Assembly: GCA_001664005.1 (NCBI GenBank)
Contig: CP016093.1
Span: 124,001-188,000 of the forward strand
Direction: 5' to 3'
Length of the DNA: 64,000 bases
Source: Rhizobiales bacterium NRL2
Lineage (GTDB): Bacteria > Pseudomonadota > Alphaproteobacteria > Minwuiales > Minwuiaceae
Positions 14,423 through 22,898 of the stretch are shown piece by piece. The notes beneath the pieces were generated by a model. The model searched no databases. It had not been told where the DNA came from and saw only the letters and a list, made by a program, of their open reading frames with translations. The first letter of the stretch is position 1. Every line of letters begins with the position of its first letter. The position numbers were made by a program, and so were the translations under genes.

Positions 14423-15880
14423 TCAGACCTTGCGGTGGTCGGGCGCGGCCTTCCAGAAGTACTTCTTGAAGCCGCGGCGCTCGTCCTCGACCTTGATGCG
14501 GAAGACCATGCGCAGCGGCATGCCGACCTCGACATCGCCCTTGTCGACGTCCGTCAGGTCGGCCATCAGCCGCCCGCCGCCCTCGAAGGTGACCATGCCG
14601 AAATGGGTCGGCGGGTCCGGCGAGTAGGTCAGGCCGTCCGCGGTCCAGCTCTGCACGGTGCAGGGCACGTCGGCGAAGCGGTAGGGTTCCTGGCTCTTCC
14701 AGGCGCCGCAGTTCGGGTTCACGCAGATATGGGACTTCGGATACTGCACGGTGCCGCACTTGGTGCACTTCCCGCCGACGAAGCCCAGGACCATGTCGCG
14801 CTTGCGGTAGAGGGTGGTCAGCGCGGTCTGGGCGTCGACCTCGGCGCGGATGCCCTTGTCGCGGTCGATCAGGTCATTGAAGGCGAGGTAGCGGTTGTAG
14901 TTGGTCTCCTCGCGCTTGCGCTTGAGGTAGCCCTCGACGCCGCCCAGGCTCGGCTTGAACTTGCCGATGGCGTCGGTGGCGCGGAACAGCATCAGGTCGC
15001 AGCCCTGGCCCCAGCCGATCACCAGGATGGTCTGGCCGGGCTTCGCGTTCTGCAGCGCCTTCGAGAGCATGATCAGCGCATGGGCCGCGCCGGCCTCGCC
15101 CATCACGGCGTGCAGGCTGTCCTGCACCGCCTCGTCCCTGATGCCGGCGCCCTTGGCGATCTTCTGCGCCACGCCGCGGATCAGCGCCGGCATGATCATC
15201 ATGTCGATGTCGGAGCCGGCGACGCCGGTCTTGTCCAGCAGGGCCTGCACCGCCGGCGGCACGATCTTGAAATAGCCCTCGTCGCGGATCCAGCGCTCCT
15301 CCCAGTTGTAGTCGTAGGACCGGTTCTGGCCGCGGTAATGGTCGACGAAGTCCGTGGAGATCTGATGCGAACCGAGATACTCGGCGACCACGTTGTCGCT
15401 GCCCAGCAGCAGCGCCGCGGCGCCGTCGCCCATCTGCAGTTCCTGCGCGCCCGACGCCGCGGTCTCGCGGGTATCGGCGGCGACGTAGAGCACCTGGCCG
15501 TCGCGCCCCTCGACGTTCTCCAGTGCCTCGATCAGGCCCGAGGTGCCGGCGCGCTGCGACGAGGTCATGTCGACGGTGCGCAGGTTCTCCCCCAGCTGCA
15601 GCGCCGTCGCCGCGACGGTCGCGTTCTGACGGTCGGCGAAGGGCATGGTGGTGGACGCGAAGTACAGCGCGCGCAGATCGGACGGGGCCGTCTCGCCCAG
15701 GCAGTCCCGGGCCGCCTCGACAGCCATGGTCAGGCTGTCCTCGTCCCAGTTGCACATGGACCGCTCGCCCTTCGCCAGTCCAGCCAGCGCCGGGTTGAAC
15801 CAGCCATTCGCCTCAACGACCGCCTTGCGCTGCAGCCGAAGCCGCGGCACGTAGCCGCCAAATCCGGTAATTCCAGCCAT
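14423..15880 (-). CDS. HMG-CoA synthase-like thiolase-fold protein fused to a DUF35 OB-fold domain
   Basis: A 485-residue two-domain protein. Residues 1 to about 345 have the KAS III/HMG-CoA-synthase-type fold (MAGITGFGGYVPRLRLQRK, GDGAAALLLGSDN, GWGQGCDLMLFRATD). The remainder is a rubredoxin-like zinc ribbon (KCTKCGTVQYPKSHICVNPNCG) followed by the DUF35 OB fold (VPCTVQSWTADGL, FGMVTFEGGG). In archaeal and steroid-degrading systems DUF35 proteins pair with thiolases as separate subunits; here they are one chain. The expected active-site cysteine region reads SSQRAGTSG, so no cysteine is visible there, which questions condensing activity. ATG 15880 gives the family N-terminus. Confidence 0.8.
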   Translation of the reverse strand: MAGITGFGGYVPRLRLQRKAVVEANGWFNPALAGLAKGERSMCNWDEDSLTMAVEAARDCLGETAPSDLRALYFASTTMPFADRQNATVAATALQLGENLRTVDMTSSQRAGTSGLIEALENVEGRDGQVLYVAADTRETAASGAQELQMGDGAAALLLGSDNVVAEYLGSHQISTDFVDHYRGQNRSYDYNWEERWIRDEGYFKIVPPAVQALLDKTGVAGSDIDMMIMPALIRGVAQKIAKGAGIRDEAVQDSLHAVMGEAGAAHALIMLSKALQNAKPGQTILVIGWGQGCDLMLFRATDAIGKFKPSLGGVEGYLKRKREETNYNRYLAFNDLIDRDKGIRAEVDAQTALTTLYRKRDMVLGFVGGKCTKCGTVQYPKSHICVNPNCGAWKSQEPYRFADVPCTVQSWTADGLTYSPDPPTHFGMVTFEGGGRLMADLTDVDKGDVEVGMPLRMVFRIKVEDERRGFKKYFWKAAPDHRKV

Positions 15881-16057
15881 ATCGCCCTCTGTCGGTGTCT
15901 CCCCAACGCGCGGACGCGCGTTTCGGCCAATAAAGCCCAAGGTCCGCCGCGCCGCAAGGGCCGGCGGGGTCGCACCTGCCATGAGCCGCGCGTGCGCGAG
16001 GCGCTTGACGACAAACCGCGCGGACGTTAGAACCCGCGGCCTGCCGAGCAGGCCACT

Positions 16058-16133
16058 GCCCCGTTCGTCTAGTGGCCCAGGACGCCAGCCTCTCACGCTG
16101 GAAACAGGGGTTCGATTCCCCTACGGGGTACCA
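16058..16133 (+). tRNA. tRNA-Glu (anticodon CTC)
   Basis: A complete 76-nt cloverleaf with encoded CCA. The acceptor stem pairs 16058-16064 with 16123-16129 and includes a G1:U72 pair, typical of alphaproteobacterial tRNA-Glu. The anticodon loop CTCTCAC gives CTC, reading GAG. The T stem is AGGGG/CCCCT with loop TTCGATT. Confidence 0.97.
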
Positions 16134-16512: not shown

Positions 16513-17172
16513 ATGCCGACGGACGCCACAATCATCGCCAGAGATGCCCTTTTGCGGGAGGGCCTGAAGAGCATGCTGAAGGATTCGGAGTTCTCGATCG
16601 TGGAGGAGCTTCCCGAAATCGACGACAGCCCGCCGTACGAGAATGACGGAACCGCCCTGGTGCTGTTCGATGCGGCGAGCTGCGATGACGTGGCCGCCGG
16701 CCTGCAGATGGCGCGCGCACGCTTTCCCGGGGCCTTCATCGCCGTGGTCAGCGACTCGCGGGAGGCGGCGACCTTCCGCACCTGCATCGGCGCCGGGGCC
16801 GACGGTTATCTGGTGCGCGACGTCTCGCGCGAGGCGCTGCTGCAGTCGCTGCGCCTGATCATGCTCGGGGAGCGGGTCTTGCCGACCAGCCTCGCGGCGG
16901 AGGCCATCAGCGACGGCATGGCCCAGCCGCTGGACCGCGGCGCCGAACTTGGCGCGCTTGGTCTCACCGAGCGCGAACAGACCGTGCTGCGTCATCTGGT
17001 GGACGGGGATTCGAACAAGGAGATCGCCCGCCGCCTCGGCGTGACCGAGGCGACGGTGAAGATTCACATGAAGGGGCTGCTCAGGAAGCTGCGCCTCACC
17101 AACCGCACCCAGGCGGCGGTCTGGGCGATCGAGCAGGGCATCGCGCCGGTGGAGTCGGCCGGTGGCGACTGA
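16513..17172 (+). CDS. LuxR/NarL-type regulator with degenerate receiver domain
   Basis: A 219-residue two-domain regulator. The N-terminal receiver-like domain (about residues 1-125) retains an aspartate in LVLFDAAS at the phospho-site, but the acidic pair is altered (IIARDALLREGL instead of a DD motif) and the conserved lysine is replaced by arginine in GYLVRDVS, so phosphorylation control is doubtful. The C-terminal LuxR helix-turn-helix is intact (LTEREQTVLRHLVDG, NKEIARRLGVTEATVKIHMK). Size and an atypical receiver recall CsgD, the curli master regulator. The start has GGGAGG upstream. It converges on the exported-protein gene at 17198 and lies beside the CsgG-like locus. Confidence 0.85.
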   Translation: MPTDATIIARDALLREGLKSMLKDSEFSIVEELPEIDDSPPYENDGTALVLFDAASCDDVAAGLQMARARFPGAFIAVVSDSREAATFRTCIGAGADGYLVRDVSREALLQSLRLIMLGERVLPTSLAAEAISDGMAQPLDRGAELGALGLTEREQTVLRHLVDGDSNKEIARRLGVTEATVKIHMKGLLRKLRLTNRTQAAVWAIEQGIAPVESAGGD

Positions 17173-17197
17173 CGCCTCCGGGCCCGCAGCCGCGCCG

Positions 17198-17764
17198 TCA
17201 GCGTGGCTGCGGCGACGCCCCCGAGGCGCCCATGGAGGCGGCCTGACGAGTCCAGGTGTCGATGGCGCCGCGGCCCCCGGCCGCGCCGGCGCCCGGGCTG
17301 ACCAGGCTGACCCAGTTGTTCACCGTATCGCCGGTCTCGCCGCCGACGGGCGGCGTGACCACGAAGGCGCCGCTGGCGCCGCCGCTGCCGAAATGGGCGT
17401 TGAAGCCGCCGACGCCGAACGAGAAACCGTCGGCGCCCCGGCTGGAGAGCACGACGCTGCCGGTCGGGATTGCGGCGCCCACCTGCTCGCGGACGATGGC
17501 GACGCCATCCGGTCCGCGCTCCACCTCGAGCAGCCGGCCGTCGGAGCCGCGAAGCAGGTTGTCGGGCGTCACGCCGCGGAGCTGCTGGTCGAGAATGGCC
17601 TGACGGTGGGCGAAGCTCACCGCCTGATTGCCGCCACGGAAATTGAAGTTCTCGCGGATGGGCTGGGCTTCGGCGGCGGCCACCACGGCGACCGACGCGA
17701 AGCCGGCCGCGGCGAGGGGGATCAGCCGCGATAGTCCGTGTCTCTGACGCTTGTCGGTCTGCAT
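17198..17764 (-). CDS. Exported protein of unknown function, possible fibre/anchor component
   Basis: A 188-residue exported protein. A twin-basic start and hydrophobic core (LIPLAAAGFASVAVVAA) end at a signal-peptidase site AEAQ. The mature part begins NFNFRGGNQAVSFAHRQ and has a glycine/serine-rich centre (FSFGVGGFNAHFGSGGASGAF) and a tail rich in alanine, glycine and glutamine. I do not recognise the family. Glycine/asparagine/serine-rich beta-forming sequence, export and a CsgG-like neighbour fit a holdfast-anchor or curlin-like subunit, which is inference. ATG 17764 is fixed by GGAGGAAG. It follows the second LuxR gene by 80 bp on the same strand. Confidence 0.65.
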   Translation of the reverse strand: MQTDKRQRHGLSRLIPLAAAGFASVAVVAAAEAQPIRENFNFRGGNQAVSFAHRQAILDQQLRGVTPDNLLRGSDGRLLEVERGPDGVAIVREQVGAAIPTGSVVLSSRGADGFSFGVGGFNAHFGSGGASGAFVVTPPVGGETGDTVNNWVSLVSPGAGAAGGRGAIDTWTRQAASMGASGASPQPR

Positions 17765-17844
17765 TGGTTCTTCCTCCACCTTTCCGACGCTGATACCTCA
17801 ATGTGGTGGCGCGCGGCGGCGCATTGCAACGCCTAACCGGGCCT

Positions 17845-18594
17845 CTACCCCCAATGCGCCGCGTCCGCGAGGCGATGTCCGCCCTCCTCCGGCGCCGCCT
17901 GCCGGGCGCGCGCCAGGAACACCGCGGCTTCGGTCCGGTTGCGCAGGTTGAGCCGGCCCAGAACCCGGCGCACGAGTGCCTTGGCGACGGCGTCGGTCAG
18001 GCCGAGTTCGCGTCCGATGGCGCGGTTGGTCGATCCACGGGCGAGCGCCTCCAGCACGCCCCGCTCGCGCGGATCCATCTCCTGCAGGGTGGCGCGGCGC
18101 AGGCTGAACAGGTCCAGCCCGCCTTCGGCGCCCGAGGGCACCACCCCATAGCCGAGCCGTGTCAGCCGCAACGCATCCGCCAGCCGCGCGGGGCCGAGAT
18201 CGGCGAACAGCCAGGCTTCGCCCAGCTTCATCGCAGGCGCGCCGTCCAGCAGTTCGTCCAGGGCCACCACCACGACCAGCCGCGCGCCACGCAGCAGGCC
18301 GAACAGCCTGAGCGTCTCGCCGCGCGGCAGGTTCCAGAAGGTGGCGTGCCAGACCAGCACGTCGGCGTTGGCGAAGTCGTGACGCTCCATCAGGCCGGCA
18401 AGTTCGTCCAGTCCGCCCGCACGCGTCACCGGCATGCCCTCGGCGCCCCGCAGGTCGCGGGCGATCCGCCGCAGCCGCGTGCGGCCGTCGTCATAGACGA
18501 CCACCGGTCGCGCCGGCTCCCGCACGATCGATTCCCGGCCGGTCATCGGACCCGATTGCCGGGCATCCCCGTGATCGGCGTCAGTCCTTTCCAT
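17845..18594 (-). CDS. LuxR-type regulator lacking a phospho-acceptor receiver
   Basis: A 249-residue regulator. The C-terminal LuxR helix-turn-helix is clear (MDPRERGVLEALARGSTNRAIGRELGLTDAVAKALVRRVLGRLNL, written here as a region, residues about 180-225). The N-terminal domain has receiver-like spacing, but the strand that should carry the phospho-aspartate reads ADVLVWHATF, so no acceptor is present. It is probably a ligand-, partner- or level-controlled factor in the manner of CsgD. Start is ATG 18594 (alternative ATG 18546). It is divergent from the CsgG/HfaB-like gene across a 311-bp AT-rich control region. Confidence 0.8.
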   Translation of the reverse strand: MERTDADHGDARQSGPMTGRESIVREPARPVVVYDDGRTRLRRIARDLRGAEGMPVTRAGGLDELAGLMERHDFANADVLVWHATFWNLPRGETLRLFGLLRGARLVVVVALDELLDGAPAMKLGEAWLFADLGPARLADALRLTRLGYGVVPSGAEGGLDLFSLRRATLQEMDPRERGVLEALARGSTNRAIGRELGLTDAVAKALVRRVLGRLNLRNRTEAAVFLARARQAAPEEGGHRLADAAHWG

Positions 18595-18905
18595 CTGATT
18601 CCTGACACTCCCAAAACGCCCTCTTTTCTCTATCTGCGCCACGCCGGCTGAATATGCCGTACTTGTTCGCGTCCATCGTACGAACAGATCCCCGCAACGC
18701 AATCAATCGGCCGTATTAGGCCTTTGGTTTTATTATTTACCCATGTTGGATTTGCACCTTCTCCGGAAGTGGTAGCCCCTTTTTTGCACCATGATACCCC
18801 TTTGATTTCTTTCAATCGCGCCGTTCAGACCCGAAACTCGTCACAGATCGAACACGGCGACAGCCGCCGCCCCAGACCGGCGGCGCGACCAAAGGGACAA
18901 ATGGG
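18595..18905. promoter_or_regulatory. Divergent control region of the curli-like locus, with an inverted repeat at 18664-18686
   Basis: This 311-bp interval between luxR2 and the CsgG-like gene is clearly AT-richer than the rest of the window. It contains the inverted repeat TGTTCG-N11-CGAACA at 18664-18686, a plausible LuxR operator, and two similar T-rich stretches (18775-18790 and 18797-18812) reading roughly AGCCCCTTTTTTGCACC and ATACCCCTTTGATTTC. No gene fits in it. Confidence 0.5.
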
Positions 18906-19745
18906 ATGCGAAGCAACAAGCAGAAAAAACGGTCCAGGCGGCTGGGCCAGGTCTCGACCATCGCGGCGGCGGCCCTGCTCGCGGCGGCCTGCGAAGGTCA
19001 CATCGAACACGGCGAGGACGGCGTGGATCCCGTCTTCAGTTTCCCCGTGACCAGCAACGAGACCCCCTATACCCAGTGCCTGTCCGGGCTTTCCCGGCAG
19101 GACGGCGACAACCTGCCGATCTTCGCGGTCGGCGAGGTGGCCGACAAATCGGGCCAGATCGACCTGCAGACGGGCAGCCGCGCGCTCAGCCAGGGCGTGT
19201 CCGAGATGGTCATCAGCGCACTGGGCCGCACGGGCAAGGTGCGCATGGTCGAACGCCTCGACCTGCGCATCCCGCTGGCCGAAATGAAGCTGGCCCAGGG
19301 CGGCCAGCTGGAACGCGATATCGACGACTACGAACTGCCGGCGAGCGATTTCATCGTCGCCGGCGCGCTGACCGAGCTGAACCACAACATCGCCAGCGGC
19401 GGCGTGCGCGCCGCGGTCAAGGGCGTTGGCGGTTCGGCCCGTTCGGTCGTCATCAACGTCGCTCTGGACCTTCGGGTGATCAACTCGCGGAACTTCACGG
19501 TGCCCTACACCCTCAGCCTGCAGAAGCAGATCTACGGCTACGAGGTGCAGGCCAATATCTTCCGCTTCTTCGGCGATCACCTGGTCGAGTTCGACGCCGG
19601 GCAGATCGAAAACGAACCTCTCCAGCTCGGCGTCAGGTCCGTCGTGGAAATGGCGGTTTACCGCGTCATGACGGACTTCCTCGGTCTCGAGCCGGACGCG
19701 CAATGCCGTCTGGTTCGGACCGATCACATGGGAGAGGAACTCTGA
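18906..19745 (+). CDS. CsgG/HfaB-family secretion lipoprotein
   Basis: A 279-residue outer-membrane lipoprotein of the CsgG/HfaB family. A basic n-region (RSNKQKKRSRR) leads to a hydrophobic core and lipobox-like LLAAAC with Cys29 as lipidation site. Family features follow: LPIFAVGEVADKSGQ (strand 1), GVSEMVISALGRTGKVRMVERLDL, DFIVAGALTELN, and the transmembrane hairpin area near SVVINVALDLRVINSRNFTV. CsgG forms a nonameric export pore for curli; HfaB exports holdfast-anchor proteins in Caulobacter. Here it leads an operon with two exported proteins, its likely cargo. ATG 18906 has AAGGGA upstream. Confidence 0.88.
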   Translation: MRSNKQKKRSRRLGQVSTIAAAALLAAACEGHIEHGEDGVDPVFSFPVTSNETPYTQCLSGLSRQDGDNLPIFAVGEVADKSGQIDLQTGSRALSQGVSEMVISALGRTGKVRMVERLDLRIPLAEMKLAQGGQLERDIDDYELPASDFIVAGALTELNHNIASGGVRAAVKGVGGSARSVVINVALDLRVINSRNFTVPYTLSLQKQIYGYEVQANIFRFFGDHLVEFDAGQIENEPLQLGVRSVVEMAVYRVMTDFLGLEPDAQCRLVRTDHMGEEL

Positions 19746-19772
19746 ACCGAACCGTCCAAGAAGGAGGACGAC

Positions 19773-20882
19773 ATGTTTAAGCACAAGCAGTGGCTCTATG
19801 CCGGCACAGCCGCCGCGGCCCTGAGCTTCGGCCTCGCCGTAAGCGGCCCCGCCCAGGCCTTCGAGGAAGTCAACTGGAGCTGGGACAAGGACGTGGTGGA
19901 GACCGTCGACATCGACGTCGACATCACGTCCGCCATGGAACCGGTCGGCCTGACCGAGGTCGAGAAGCTGCAGGTCGCCATCGGCAACCAGACCGCCACG
20001 GCGACGCTCGGCACCTTCAACAACGCACCGCCTGCGGAAGGCGGCACCGTGGACGGCACCGTCACCTTCGAAGGCTCCTACGAGGACGATGACGACCTCG
20101 GCGACGAGGCCTTCGACGAGGCGTTCGCGCTCAATGGCGACCAGTCCACCGAGCAGACCTTCGGCAGCGATGTCGACAACAACCAGGTCGAGACCGGCGG
20201 CGGCTTCGAAGGCGGCACCGTGACCGTCGAGGGCGGCGTCAACGAGGGCTCCGACGTCCTCACCGACGGCGACCAGGGCGCGACCCGGTTCGTCGTGACC
20301 GTCGAGGATCTCGAGGTGGCGCCGGATCAGGCCATCGACGCGACGACCGAACTGCCGGTGGTCGAGGTCGCGGCGACCGCGCTGGCCAACTCGGAGACCA
20401 TCGAGAGCGAGACCGCCACGACGATCCACGAAGGCCAGTTCGCCTTCGGCGGTTTCTCGGGTGAAGCCGGTGCCGAGGGCTCCAACCTGGACGGCGTCGA
20501 GGACGCCAACACCCACATCGCGGCGCTGGACCAGCTCCTGAACGCCGGCGGTGCGGGCGCCATCACGCCCGCGCAGGTCTCGGCCGTCGCTTCGGCCGAC
20601 GCCATCGCCAACGGCCAGGCCGACATCAGCGCCCAGGCCATCGCCAACAACCACTCGATCGACGTGAACGCGGCGAGCGAGGACGATGGCGTGCTGATCG
20701 CGGACCTGACCCAGGGCGCGTTCGCGGACTCGGTGGCCACCGCCTCGCTGAACTCGAGCACGGTTGAGAACTACACCAACCTGCGCGAGATCGGCACGGA
20801 CGGTATCGCGCCGGTCGCCAATGTGAGCGCGACCGCCGCGGGCAACGTCTCCGACATCAGCGTCGGCTTCGACGCCGAGTGA
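19773..20882 (+). CDS. Large acidic exported protein, likely cargo of the CsgG-like pore
   Basis: A 369-residue exported protein of no family I can name. The signal peptide ends at GPAQA/FEEVNWSWDKD. The mature chain is strongly acidic, lacks cysteine and has almost no lysine or arginine after residue 70. The C-terminal half contains imperfect repeats built as alternating small residues plus an asparagine turn (VEVAATALANSETIES, VSAVASADAIANGQADI, AQAIANNHSIDVNA, VANVSATAAGNVSDISV), a pattern that favours beta-solenoid or amyloid stacking. It lies 27 bp after the CsgG-like gene with an AAGGAGG site, so expression is probably strong. HfaD- or curlin-like function is inference. Confidence 0.75.
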   Translation: MFKHKQWLYAGTAAAALSFGLAVSGPAQAFEEVNWSWDKDVVETVDIDVDITSAMEPVGLTEVEKLQVAIGNQTATATLGTFNNAPPAEGGTVDGTVTFEGSYEDDDDLGDEAFDEAFALNGDQSTEQTFGSDVDNNQVETGGGFEGGTVTVEGGVNEGSDVLTDGDQGATRFVVTVEDLEVAPDQAIDATTELPVVEVAATALANSETIESETATTIHEGQFAFGGFSGEAGAEGSNLDGVEDANTHIAALDQLLNAGGAGAITPAQVSAVASADAIANGQADISAQAIANNHSIDVNAASEDDGVLIADLTQGAFADSVATASLNSSTVENYTNLREIGTDGIAPVANVSATAAGNVSDISVGFDAE

Positions 20883-20901
20883 TGGACGGCCCAACCGGAA
20901 A

Positions 20902-20925
20902 CCGGGGCGGGGCGACCCGCCCCGG
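20902..20925 (+). terminator. Intra-operon hairpin, possible attenuating terminator
   Basis: A perfect 10-bp stem (20902-20911 with 20916-20925) closed by a GCGA tetraloop and followed by CTTTCC, 20 bp after the acidic exported protein. The weak T tract suggests partial read-through or RNA stabilisation, giving more of the upstream protein than the downstream one. Confidence 0.6.
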
Positions 20926-20947
20926 CTTTCCATTTCCTTCGGAGCGG

Positions 20948-21388
20948 ATGATGATGATGACCAGAACAATGAACTATCGCCTGGCCGTGATCGGAACGGC
21001 CGCGCTGGCCGCCGGCGCCGTGCTGCTGGCCATGCCCCTGGCCCAGGCGCAGAACATCGAGAACAACTGGACCCCCACGCCGCAGAACCGCACCTCGGTC
21101 GCGGCCATGATCAAGCAGGCCGAGGAAGGCGTCTTCGAACAGCAGGCGAACCCGGCCCGCGTTACCGGCGGCTCCGCCGGCCAGGGCGTCGTGCTCTGCG
21201 GCGGCGGCGGCGAGGACAAGACCGCGGCCACCAGCAATCTCTCCTGCGTGGTCGTGGGCGAGGGCGCCAACGCCAGCATCAATCTCGGCCAGGACAGCGA
21301 CGGCGACCAGACCGCCGACAACGACGAAGCCGCCGAGACCGAGAACGTGATCGACGACGTCGGGCAGCTGCTGAACAGCCAGAACTAG
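20948..21388 (+). CDS. Small exported protein, third member of the CsgG-like operon
   Basis: An exported protein of about 146 residues. Several tandem ATGs (20948, 20951, 20954, 20957) make the start ambiguous; GGAG at 20941 favours the second or third. A clear signal peptide ends at PLAQAQ/NIENNW. The mature part is rich in Q, N and acidic residues, has two cysteines (VVLCGGGG and NLSCVVVG) that could form a disulfide, and a segment SINLGQDSDGDQTADN faintly like curlin repeats. I do not recognise a family. A nucleator or minor subunit role beside the larger protein is inference. Confidence 0.65.
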   Translation: MMMMTRTMNYRLAVIGTAALAAGAVLLAMPLAQAQNIENNWTPTPQNRTSVAAMIKQAEEGVFEQQANPARVTGGSAGQGVVLCGGGGEDKTAATSNLSCVVVGEGANASINLGQDSDGDQTADNDEAAETENVIDDVGQLLNSQN

Positions 21389-21804: not shown

Positions 21805-22416
21805 TCAGCCCTGCATCTCACCGAGCAGCAGGTAGAACAGCGTCACCTGCGTCGGGGCGCCCGTGGCGTCCAGGCCGTCCACGGCGGACTGGAATTTCTG
21901 GATCGCCCCCTGCGTGTTGGGACCGAAGCTGCCGTCGATGGCGCCATTGTAGGCGCCCATGTCCTGCAGCCGGCGCTGCATCTGCGCGATCGTCGCCTTG
22001 TGCATGACGTAGTTCTGCCCGGCGACGCTGAACTGCTGCGTCGGCGAGTTGCTGTCGAGACGGTGCTCGGACAGCCCCTGGGCGACGGCGCCGGCCATCG
22101 CCGCCAGCCTGGCGTCGCTGCCACCCTGGCAGCTTTCCTCGATCAGGGTGGCGATCAGCTCCGTCGACTGCCACGGCGTCAGATCGAACGTATCCGGCAT
22201 GTGGCGGTTGGAGGCGGTCAGATAACCCTGGATCCAGCCCTGGGTCATGGCGTATTCGCGGCTGTCCTTGTTCTGACGCATCTGGATGAACTTCTGGCAG
22301 CTCACCTGCCCGGCGCCCTTCACCGCGAAACGGCCCTGGCCGTCGGCGGCCGTGGCCGGGGTAGCGGCGGCCGCCAGCGCGGCGGCGGACGCGATCGCGA
22401 TTGCTGTCCGTTTCAT
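21805..22416 (-). CDS. Exported protein with C-terminal peptidoglycan-binding domain
   Basis: A 203-residue exported protein. A signal peptide (MKRTAIAIASAAALAAAATPATA) precedes a helical domain with two cysteines (QVSCQKFIQMRQ ... IEESCQGG), resembling small HdeA/Rap1a-type periplasmic folds. Residues about 140-195 match a peptidoglycan_binding_1 repeat (IAQMQRRLQDMGAYNGAIDGSFGPNTQ, given as a region, ending AIQKFQ). It is likely tethered to the cell wall. Its ATG overlaps the stop of the upstream lipoprotein gene by four bases, so the pair is translationally coupled. Confidence 0.75.
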   Translation of the reverse strand: MKRTAIAIASAAALAAAATPATAADGQGRFAVKGAGQVSCQKFIQMRQNKDSREYAMTQGWIQGYLTASNRHMPDTFDLTPWQSTELIATLIEESCQGGSDARLAAMAGAVAQGLSEHRLDSNSPTQQFSVAGQNYVMHKATIAQMQRRLQDMGAYNGAIDGSFGPNTQGAIQKFQSAVDGLDATGAPTQVTLFYLLLGEMQG

Positions 22417-22898
22417 TCTTCTTCTCCTTTGCTGTCGGCGGCGCGGGGTCCGGCGGCCCCGGCCCAGCGCCAGTCGTCGTCCCGGTCCGGCCGGCCGCGG
22501 GCGACATGGCCCGACACGGGCGTCATGGCCTGCGCCGCAGAAGCATCGCCGCCGTCGCAGACCAGCATCGGCCTCGGCGCATTCATGCCCGGCAGGCAGA
22601 CCAGTTCGTGGCGGCAGCCGGGTCCGCCTTCGGAATCGGACTGCGGCGGGGCGGCGCTGTCGAGCTGGCGCTGGCAGGCGGGGTCGACATTGCGGTCGCT
22701 CTCAGCCAGCGCCTCGCGCACCGCCGCGGTTTCCGCCAGCGGTTTCATGCGCGGATTGGCGGGGCCGCCGGACGTCGAGCCGCCGCCGGCCACCATGTCC
22801 ACCACGCTCACGGCAGTGCCCACCGCGCCGAGGGCCGTACAGCCCCCGACGAGCCACAGGCACATGAGGCTCGCGCTCAACCGGCACAGGGTTCCCAT
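22413..22898 (-). CDS. Small outer-membrane lipoprotein of unknown function
   Basis: A 161-residue lipoprotein. The lipobox LVGGC lies about 18 residues after ATG 22898, with a short mature leader GAVGTAVSVVDMVAGGGS of weak hydrophobicity. The rest is hydrophilic and probably disordered, with four cysteines (DPACQRQ, GPGCRHELVC, MLVCDGG). I do not recognise a family. It is coupled to the peptidoglycan-binding protein downstream, and the two may form a small cell-envelope unit. Confidence 0.65.
   Translation of the reverse strand: MGTLCRLSASLMCLWLVGGCTALGAVGTAVSVVDMVAGGGSTSGGPANPRMKPLAETAAVREALAESDRNVDPACQRQLDSAAPPQSDSEGGPGCRHELVCLPGMNAPRPMLVCDGGDASAAQAMTPVSGHVARGRPDRDDDWRWAGAAGPRAADSKGEEE

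Follow-up and report, generated by a model that had tools for sequence, protein, structure and literature searches.

A CsgG/HfaB-family pore gene paired with genes for exported repeat and HfaA-like proteins in a Rhizobiales bacterium: a probable third lineage of CsgG-type export

The window, a stretch of 64,000 nucleotides from Rhizobiales bacterium NRL2 (contig CP016093.1, positions 124,001 to 188,000; coordinates below count from its first letter), contains a cassette headed by csgG (18906 to 19745, plus strand), which encodes an outer-membrane pore lipoprotein of the CsgG/HfaB family with 279 residues. It is followed on the same strand by p369 (19773 to 20882), encoding an acidic exported protein, and, beyond a stem-loop, by p145 (20948 to 21388, with a start between 20948 and 20969), encoding a small N/Q-rich exported protein. 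The divergent control region that separates luxR2 from csgG (18595 to 18905) is AT rich, with 54% GC overall and 45% at 18700 to 18830; luxR2 itself (17845 to 18594, minus strand) has an uncertain start, its reading frame being open to 18702. The gly gene (17198 to 17764), likewise on the minus strand, lies about 80 bp 3' of luxR2 and encodes an exported glycine-rich protein of 188 residues, and the other regulator gene, luxR1, occupies 16513 to 17172 on the plus strand. The earlier note on this DNA, made from the sequence alone, had described a CsgG/HfaB-type lipoprotein heading a group with a 369-residue acidic exported protein bearing imperfect repeats and a small Q/N-rich exported protein, together with two LuxR regulators with degenerate receivers, one of them divergent across an AT-rich region, and an exported glycine-rich protein downstream of one regulator; all of these features were borne out. 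Signal peptides are predicted in all three putative cargo proteins; mature p369 has a pI of 4.1, 14.7% Ala, 6.2% Asn, and no Cys, mature p145 contains 19.6% Asn plus Gln, and mature gly contains 17.9% Gly.

Comparison with a close relative (G659) gave dN/dS values of 0.05 for csgG, 0.18 for p369, 0.25 for p145, 0.38 for gly, and 0.33 for a small Cys-rich lipoprotein gene farther downstream (22413 to 22898, minus strand); all of the genes are thus under purifying selection, and none is a chance open reading frame. The faster evolution of the cargo genes than of csgG would be expected of surface proteins. The Cys-rich lipoprotein is a probable accessory part, and homologs were seen near the cassette in other loci (L045, L038, L051, L054, and L039, with L042 recognized via the L054 member). 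An exported peptidoglycan-binding protein encoded at 21805 to 22416 on the minus strand (PG_binding_1, 2.3e-10) is of unsure membership: it is present in the sole tested congener with the cassette, is absent from the four tested without it, and was not seen beside other related cassettes. On the far side of luxR1, 14423 to 16096 (minus strand) encodes a fusion of an HMG-CoA-synthase-like protein with a ChsH2-type Zn-ribbon/OB domain; it is 86% conserved in congeners, where it lies in other gene neighborhoods.

The pore matched the Pfam CsgG family (PF03783) at 1.4e-25, with 90.3 bits against a cutoff of 20.8; it carries an outer-membrane lipobox reading LAAAC and aligned with the sequence of a solved CsgG structure at 3e-16. 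Against the NCBIfam HfaB model it scored 165 bits, under the equivalog cutoff of 300. In a tree of 48 pores, it belonged to a new clade that stood apart from HfaB with a support of 100/100, with values of 99/97 for HfaB and 100/98 for a group associated with SEL1-repeat proteins; the attachment point of curli CsgG and the rooting of the new clade are unsure because the branches are long. Most pores of the new clade read VGE[IV]xDKTGQ where HfaB reads VGxIxDYTGK. In the window's pore, the loop that corresponds to the eyelet of E. coli CsgG is without the Tyr/Phe pair found there, so that gating may differ, given the roles of this loop and these residues in CsgG structures. Relatives of the pore with 54 to 68% identity occur here and there in the Alphaproteobacteria, among them Fodinicurvata, where the type strain F. 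fenggangensis DSM 21160 carries the cassette as locus L054, and metagenome-assembled genomes labeled Rhizomicrobium, Micavibrio, Neomegalonema, and Rhizobium, and relatives with 49 to 50% identity are encoded on plasmids of Vibrio alginolyticus and Photobacterium.

The pairing of this pore with p369 is strict. In a sample of 289 genomes from across the Alphaproteobacteria, the csgG subclade was found in eight, and the p369 profile found exactly the same eight, with p369 directly behind csgG in every carrier; p369 was absent from the 24 other genomes of the sample with CsgG/HfaB-like matches. Among the related loci, those on the Vibrio and Photobacterium plasmids included, p369 followed csgG in all but one, where the contig stops at csgG; p145 was present in all but two, both cut by contig ends. 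The earlier note had suggested a check of co-occurrence and had named two outcomes that would count against its reading, namely, a CsgG-like gene commonly occurring without the exported proteins and exported proteins that belong to a known unrelated family; the subclade was never without p369 where the contig was long enough, and the cargo proteins were absent from all of the family libraries searched. The cassette is present in two of the nine genomes of the window's own family, and this patchiness, together with the plasmid copies, suggests horizontal movement. An empty-site comparison with congeners for dating the insertion was set aside, the flanks being nonsyntenic except for one gene. 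One genome (G015) carries six copies of the cassette, four of them as csgG-p369-p145 in tandem (L035; G015:C1:455000-474500) and two elsewhere; within the tandem array, one csgG is reduced to a C-terminal fragment, with the p369 and p145 of the same cassette intact. No published account of the cassette turned up in the open-access papers searched, outside of which lie most subscription papers and all preprints, and its novelty is therefore provisional.

In the p369 family alignment, which comprises 27 members, both Trp residues of an N-terminal FDxVxWxW motif are invariant. The protein consists of three units whose segment profiles detect one another (probabilities of 70 to 96%, equaled in 0 of 40 shuffles), each taking the form V-x-A-x-S-x-V-x-x-[VI] and then V-x-S-x-ATAVGNN-x-[SN]-[IV], and the linkers between them are long and variable. 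An AF2 model has confident long strands in the units (block pLDDT mostly 77 to 93) and linkers of low confidence. No family match was obtained in Pfam or NCBIfam with all 27 members tried, nor with the curlin and Fap families, and the p369 profile matched none of the solved structures; a Foldseek search with the model returned nothing significant, the top row being FapC (E value of 0.17, probability of 0.04). Identity with HfaD was rejected on profile comparison (probability of 1.3%), and a match to the KxYKxGKxW signal (E value of 0.0048) was below the cutoff, came from a single member, and was taken as chance. FapC, too, is built of three imperfect repeats with linkers between them (PMC12822426), and we regard its likeness to p369 as an architectural parallel only. 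The protein p369 is the probable major cargo.

The small protein p145 likewise had no family match in Pfam or NCBIfam (27 members tried), and its profile matched no solved structure. Aligned by hhalign with the HfaA profile, it gave a probability of 95.4% over 37 columns, and with signal peptides removed, the probability was 76% and the score was 36.1, against a shuffled maximum of 12.9. In two HfaB genomes, hfaA was the sole match of the p145 profile (4.8e-4 and 6.7e-4), and, reciprocally, the HfaA profile matched p145 in one cassette carrier (0.002); a search of the window's own genome with the HfaA profile gave no match. By these profile comparisons, p145 is a remote homolog of HfaA, a surface protein that forms SDS-resistant multimers and depends on HfaB to reach the surface (PMC6707917), and it is the probable minor cargo. 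The earlier note had expected subunits unlike CsgA/B and perhaps unlike HfaA/D. The absence of curlin and the lack of any detectable HfaD relationship in p369 agree with this expectation, and the remote HfaA homology of p145 does not, so that the cargo would not be wholly unlike holdfast anchors.

A possible third cargo is gly, for which no match was found in Pfam (searched with 20 relatives) or NCBIfam (searched with gly alone) and for which the structure model is poor (pLDDT of 49), with no fold readable from it. The gly1 family occurs in 14 distinct loci (15 counted, one being a duplicate), and in seven further loci the gly position is taken by gly2, another small exported family. An aromatic motif marks the mature N terminus in all three cargo families, either FDxVxWxW in p369 or NxP[WFY]xF, with the mature N terminus of gly belonging to an NNxPFSF family; the copies in the window are variants, NIENNWTP in p145 and RENFNF in gly. 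With cleavage sites placed by a simple rule rather than by SignalP, P[WFY] stood at the predicted mature N terminus in 19 of 27 p145 proteins (0.25 expected), 12 of 13 gly1 proteins (0.88 expected), and all 3 proteins of the SEL1-associated group. The first 22 residues of E. coli CsgA guide it to CsgG (PMC10192328), and the natural hypothesis is therefore that the aromatic motif is a pore-recognition tag, for which it is at present a candidate, the motif of p369 being different from that of p145 and gly.

The stem-loop between p369 and p145 (20902 to 20925, plus strand) has a 10-bp, all-GC stem in the window. A G+C-rich hairpin with a stem of 9 to 15 bp was present in 27 of 27 p369-p145 gaps, low-GC plasmid copies included, and for each gap at most 2 of 100 shuffles matched the real stem; for this analysis, the start assigned to p145 was reset to an ATG farther downstream in L058, was shifted slightly in L002, and was unchanged in the other 25. 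In controls, such hairpins turned up in 9 of 300 random windows and in none of the 23 csgG upstream regions. Stem sequences vary between distant loci; the hairpin of G659 is identical to that of the window, and its flanks differ. In some copies (L047, L054, and L041), a T-run follows the hairpin, which is thus a candidate attenuator, and its likely role is that of a partial terminator or mRNA-stabilizing element through which p369 would come to outnumber p145. The hairpin may in this way set the ratio of the two subunits, or it could simply be an early terminator.

Both regulators have the DNA-binding domain of LuxR-type proteins and a degraded receiver. LuxR1, of the NarL/FixJ family, matched GerE at 6.5e-20 and Response_reg only at 0.0018, with the conserved Lys replaced by Arg and the acidic pair altered, and aligned with NarL over its length at 3.2e-21. 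LuxR2 matched GerE at 6.3e-9 and had no receiver match, its phospho-receiver being unrecognizable and its alignment with NarL confined to the helix-turn-helix. Most of the related regulators have lost the acidic pair, and their residues at the phospho-acceptor and Lys positions vary; these proteins are likely to be controlled by means other than ordinary phosphorylation. LuxR genes are present in 25 related loci, with LuxR2 homologs at the same place in L045, L046, L038, L054, L039, L041, and L042. The label "CsgD-like" given to the regulators earlier holds as an analogy in LuxR type and receiver degeneracy; LuxR1 scores higher with NarL (104 bits) than with CsgD (73 bits, under the cutoff of 250). 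An inverted repeat that had been reported in the luxR2-csgG gap did not survive scrutiny, amounting to one perfect 8-nucleotide pair where 0.48 is expected and 33 of 100 shuffles did as well, and no DNA motif shared upstream of csgG in 20 loci rose above shuffles.

Taken as a whole, the locus probably represents a third CsgG/HfaB-type export lineage that builds an adhesive surface coat or fiber, possibly an amyloid. This reading, drawn from sequence comparison, is supported by the strict pairing of the csgG subclade with p369, the predicted signal peptides and N-terminal motifs, the homology of p145 to HfaA, the repeats and beta-rich model of p369, the invariably present hairpin, and the plasmid-borne and patchy spread; it is weakened by the lack of a significant fold match or detectable HfaD relationship for p369, by the absence of CsgF, by an eyelet loop without Tyr and Phe, by the differing N-terminal motifs of the cargo, and by the poor model of gly. 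From these features we infer export, stoichiometry, fiber or amyloid assembly, and adhesion, along the following lines. The cargo proteins would be moved by Sec to the periplasm and would stay unfolded there until an oligomeric, CsgG-like pore in the outer membrane recognized the aromatic tag at the mature N terminus and released each of them. On the surface, p369 would fold and stack via its three beta-units to become the main structural material, and p145 would nucleate that material or anchor it at the pore, being kept scarcer than p369 by the hairpin between their genes. The two LuxR regulators, probably not responsive to phosphorylation in the usual way, would switch the cassette on, gly would be a third exported part, and the product would be an adhesive coat or fiber for attachment to surfaces.

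Other readings draw on parts of the same evidence. The locus might be a diverged Hfa system in which p145 and p369, forming no fiber of their own, hold an exported polysaccharide to the cell, as could be argued from the 165 bits that the pore scores against HfaB, the remote HfaA homology of p145, the place of p369 behind the pore gene, which recalls HfaD, and the A-x-A-[IV]-G-N motifs of p369. We consider this unlikely, since the pore is under the HfaB cutoff and on a fully supported separate branch, p369 is not HfaD, the HfaA profile finds nothing in the window's own genome, the gene order is unlike that of Hfa, gly and the LuxR genes are additional, and no polysaccharide genes were seen among the conserved neighbors read. 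Still less probable, and in our view very much so, is the release of the exported proteins as signals or effectors, which the dedicated regulators and the small size of the proteins might suggest; enzymatic and toxin-like domains are absent from all of the cargo, the beta-repeat architecture speaks against it, and the relationship to HfaA points to the surface.

Narrower than the coat-or-fiber reading that we prefer, and compatible with it, is the proposal that p369 forms a cross-beta amyloid fiber of the curli or Fap type with a new repeat. Three imperfect repeats with linkers as in FapC, export through a CsgG-type pore, and the identity of the best fold match all argue for it, but that match is nonsignificant, no curlin or Fap family match was found, and p369 is strongly acidic, and we judge the proposal to be almost evenly balanced, inclining slightly to the negative. 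More tentative is the full picture of an undescribed, horizontally moving CsgG-type system with an aromatic tag, a three-repeat p369 beta fiber, an HfaA-like minor subunit, and a hairpin that sets the subunit ratio and keeps its structure, though not its sequence, in carriers as far apart as Alphaproteobacteria and Vibrio plasmids; we offer this as possible rather than probable.

To our knowledge, curli and holdfast anchors are essentially the only systems in which CsgG-type export has been described, and a third lineage carrying other cargo would show what such a pore can carry. The three cargo families with aromatic mature N termini constitute a natural experiment on substrate choice by the pore, and they provide new candidate adhesin or amyloid families, absent from Pfam and NCBIfam, that are carried by environmental Alphaproteobacteria and by plasmids of Vibrio and Photobacterium. 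Pores of the CsgG family serve as sequencing nanopores (PMC12844561), and the eyelet loop of the present branch is different.

Four known systems come closest to the cassette. It shares with Fap a major protein, FapC or p369, of three imperfect repeats and variable linkers, and differs in the absence of a sequence match, in a fold match at chance level, and in the linkage of its cargo to a CsgG-type pore. The SEL1-associated CsgG group (L075 to L077 and a Variovorax plasmid, L004) has its own tree branch and lacks p369; it is similar in having a small exported protein of the ENRPWQF type encoded before the pore gene in L075 to L077, and, at least in L075, an exported SEL1-repeat protein of a kind found also beside several of the present cassettes. 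Five distinct cassettes (L054, L043, L042, L039, and L051) encode such a protein close to p145, and it is absent from the window locus. On the Variovorax plasmid, the CsgG-type gene is followed by a 4.7-kb gene for an "S-layer family protein." In curli, CsgA and CsgB are exported by CsgG with CsgE, CsgF, and CsgD. Alphaproteobacteria with curli lack CsgE (PMC3521004). The present genome has neither curlin repeats (PF07012) nor CsgF (PF10614), and its locus has unrelated cargo, two regulators, and an eyelet loop without Tyr and Phe; the likeness to curli lies in a CsgG-family pore with a lipobox, an N/Q-containing exported cargo, and a dedicated LuxR-type regulator with an atypical receiver adjoining the operon. 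From the Hfa system of Caulobacter and other Alphaproteobacteria (HfaA-HfaB-HfaD), the cassette differs in the separate branch and sub-cutoff score of its pore, in the lack of HfaD homology, in having its small cargo encoded last rather than first, and in the addition of gly, two LuxR regulators, and an intergenic hairpin, and no holdfast polysaccharide (hfs) genes were noticed among the conserved neighbors; the two are alike in an HfaB-type pore of the CsgG family, in the remote homology of p145 to HfaA, and in having the gene for a larger repeat protein directly behind that for the pore.
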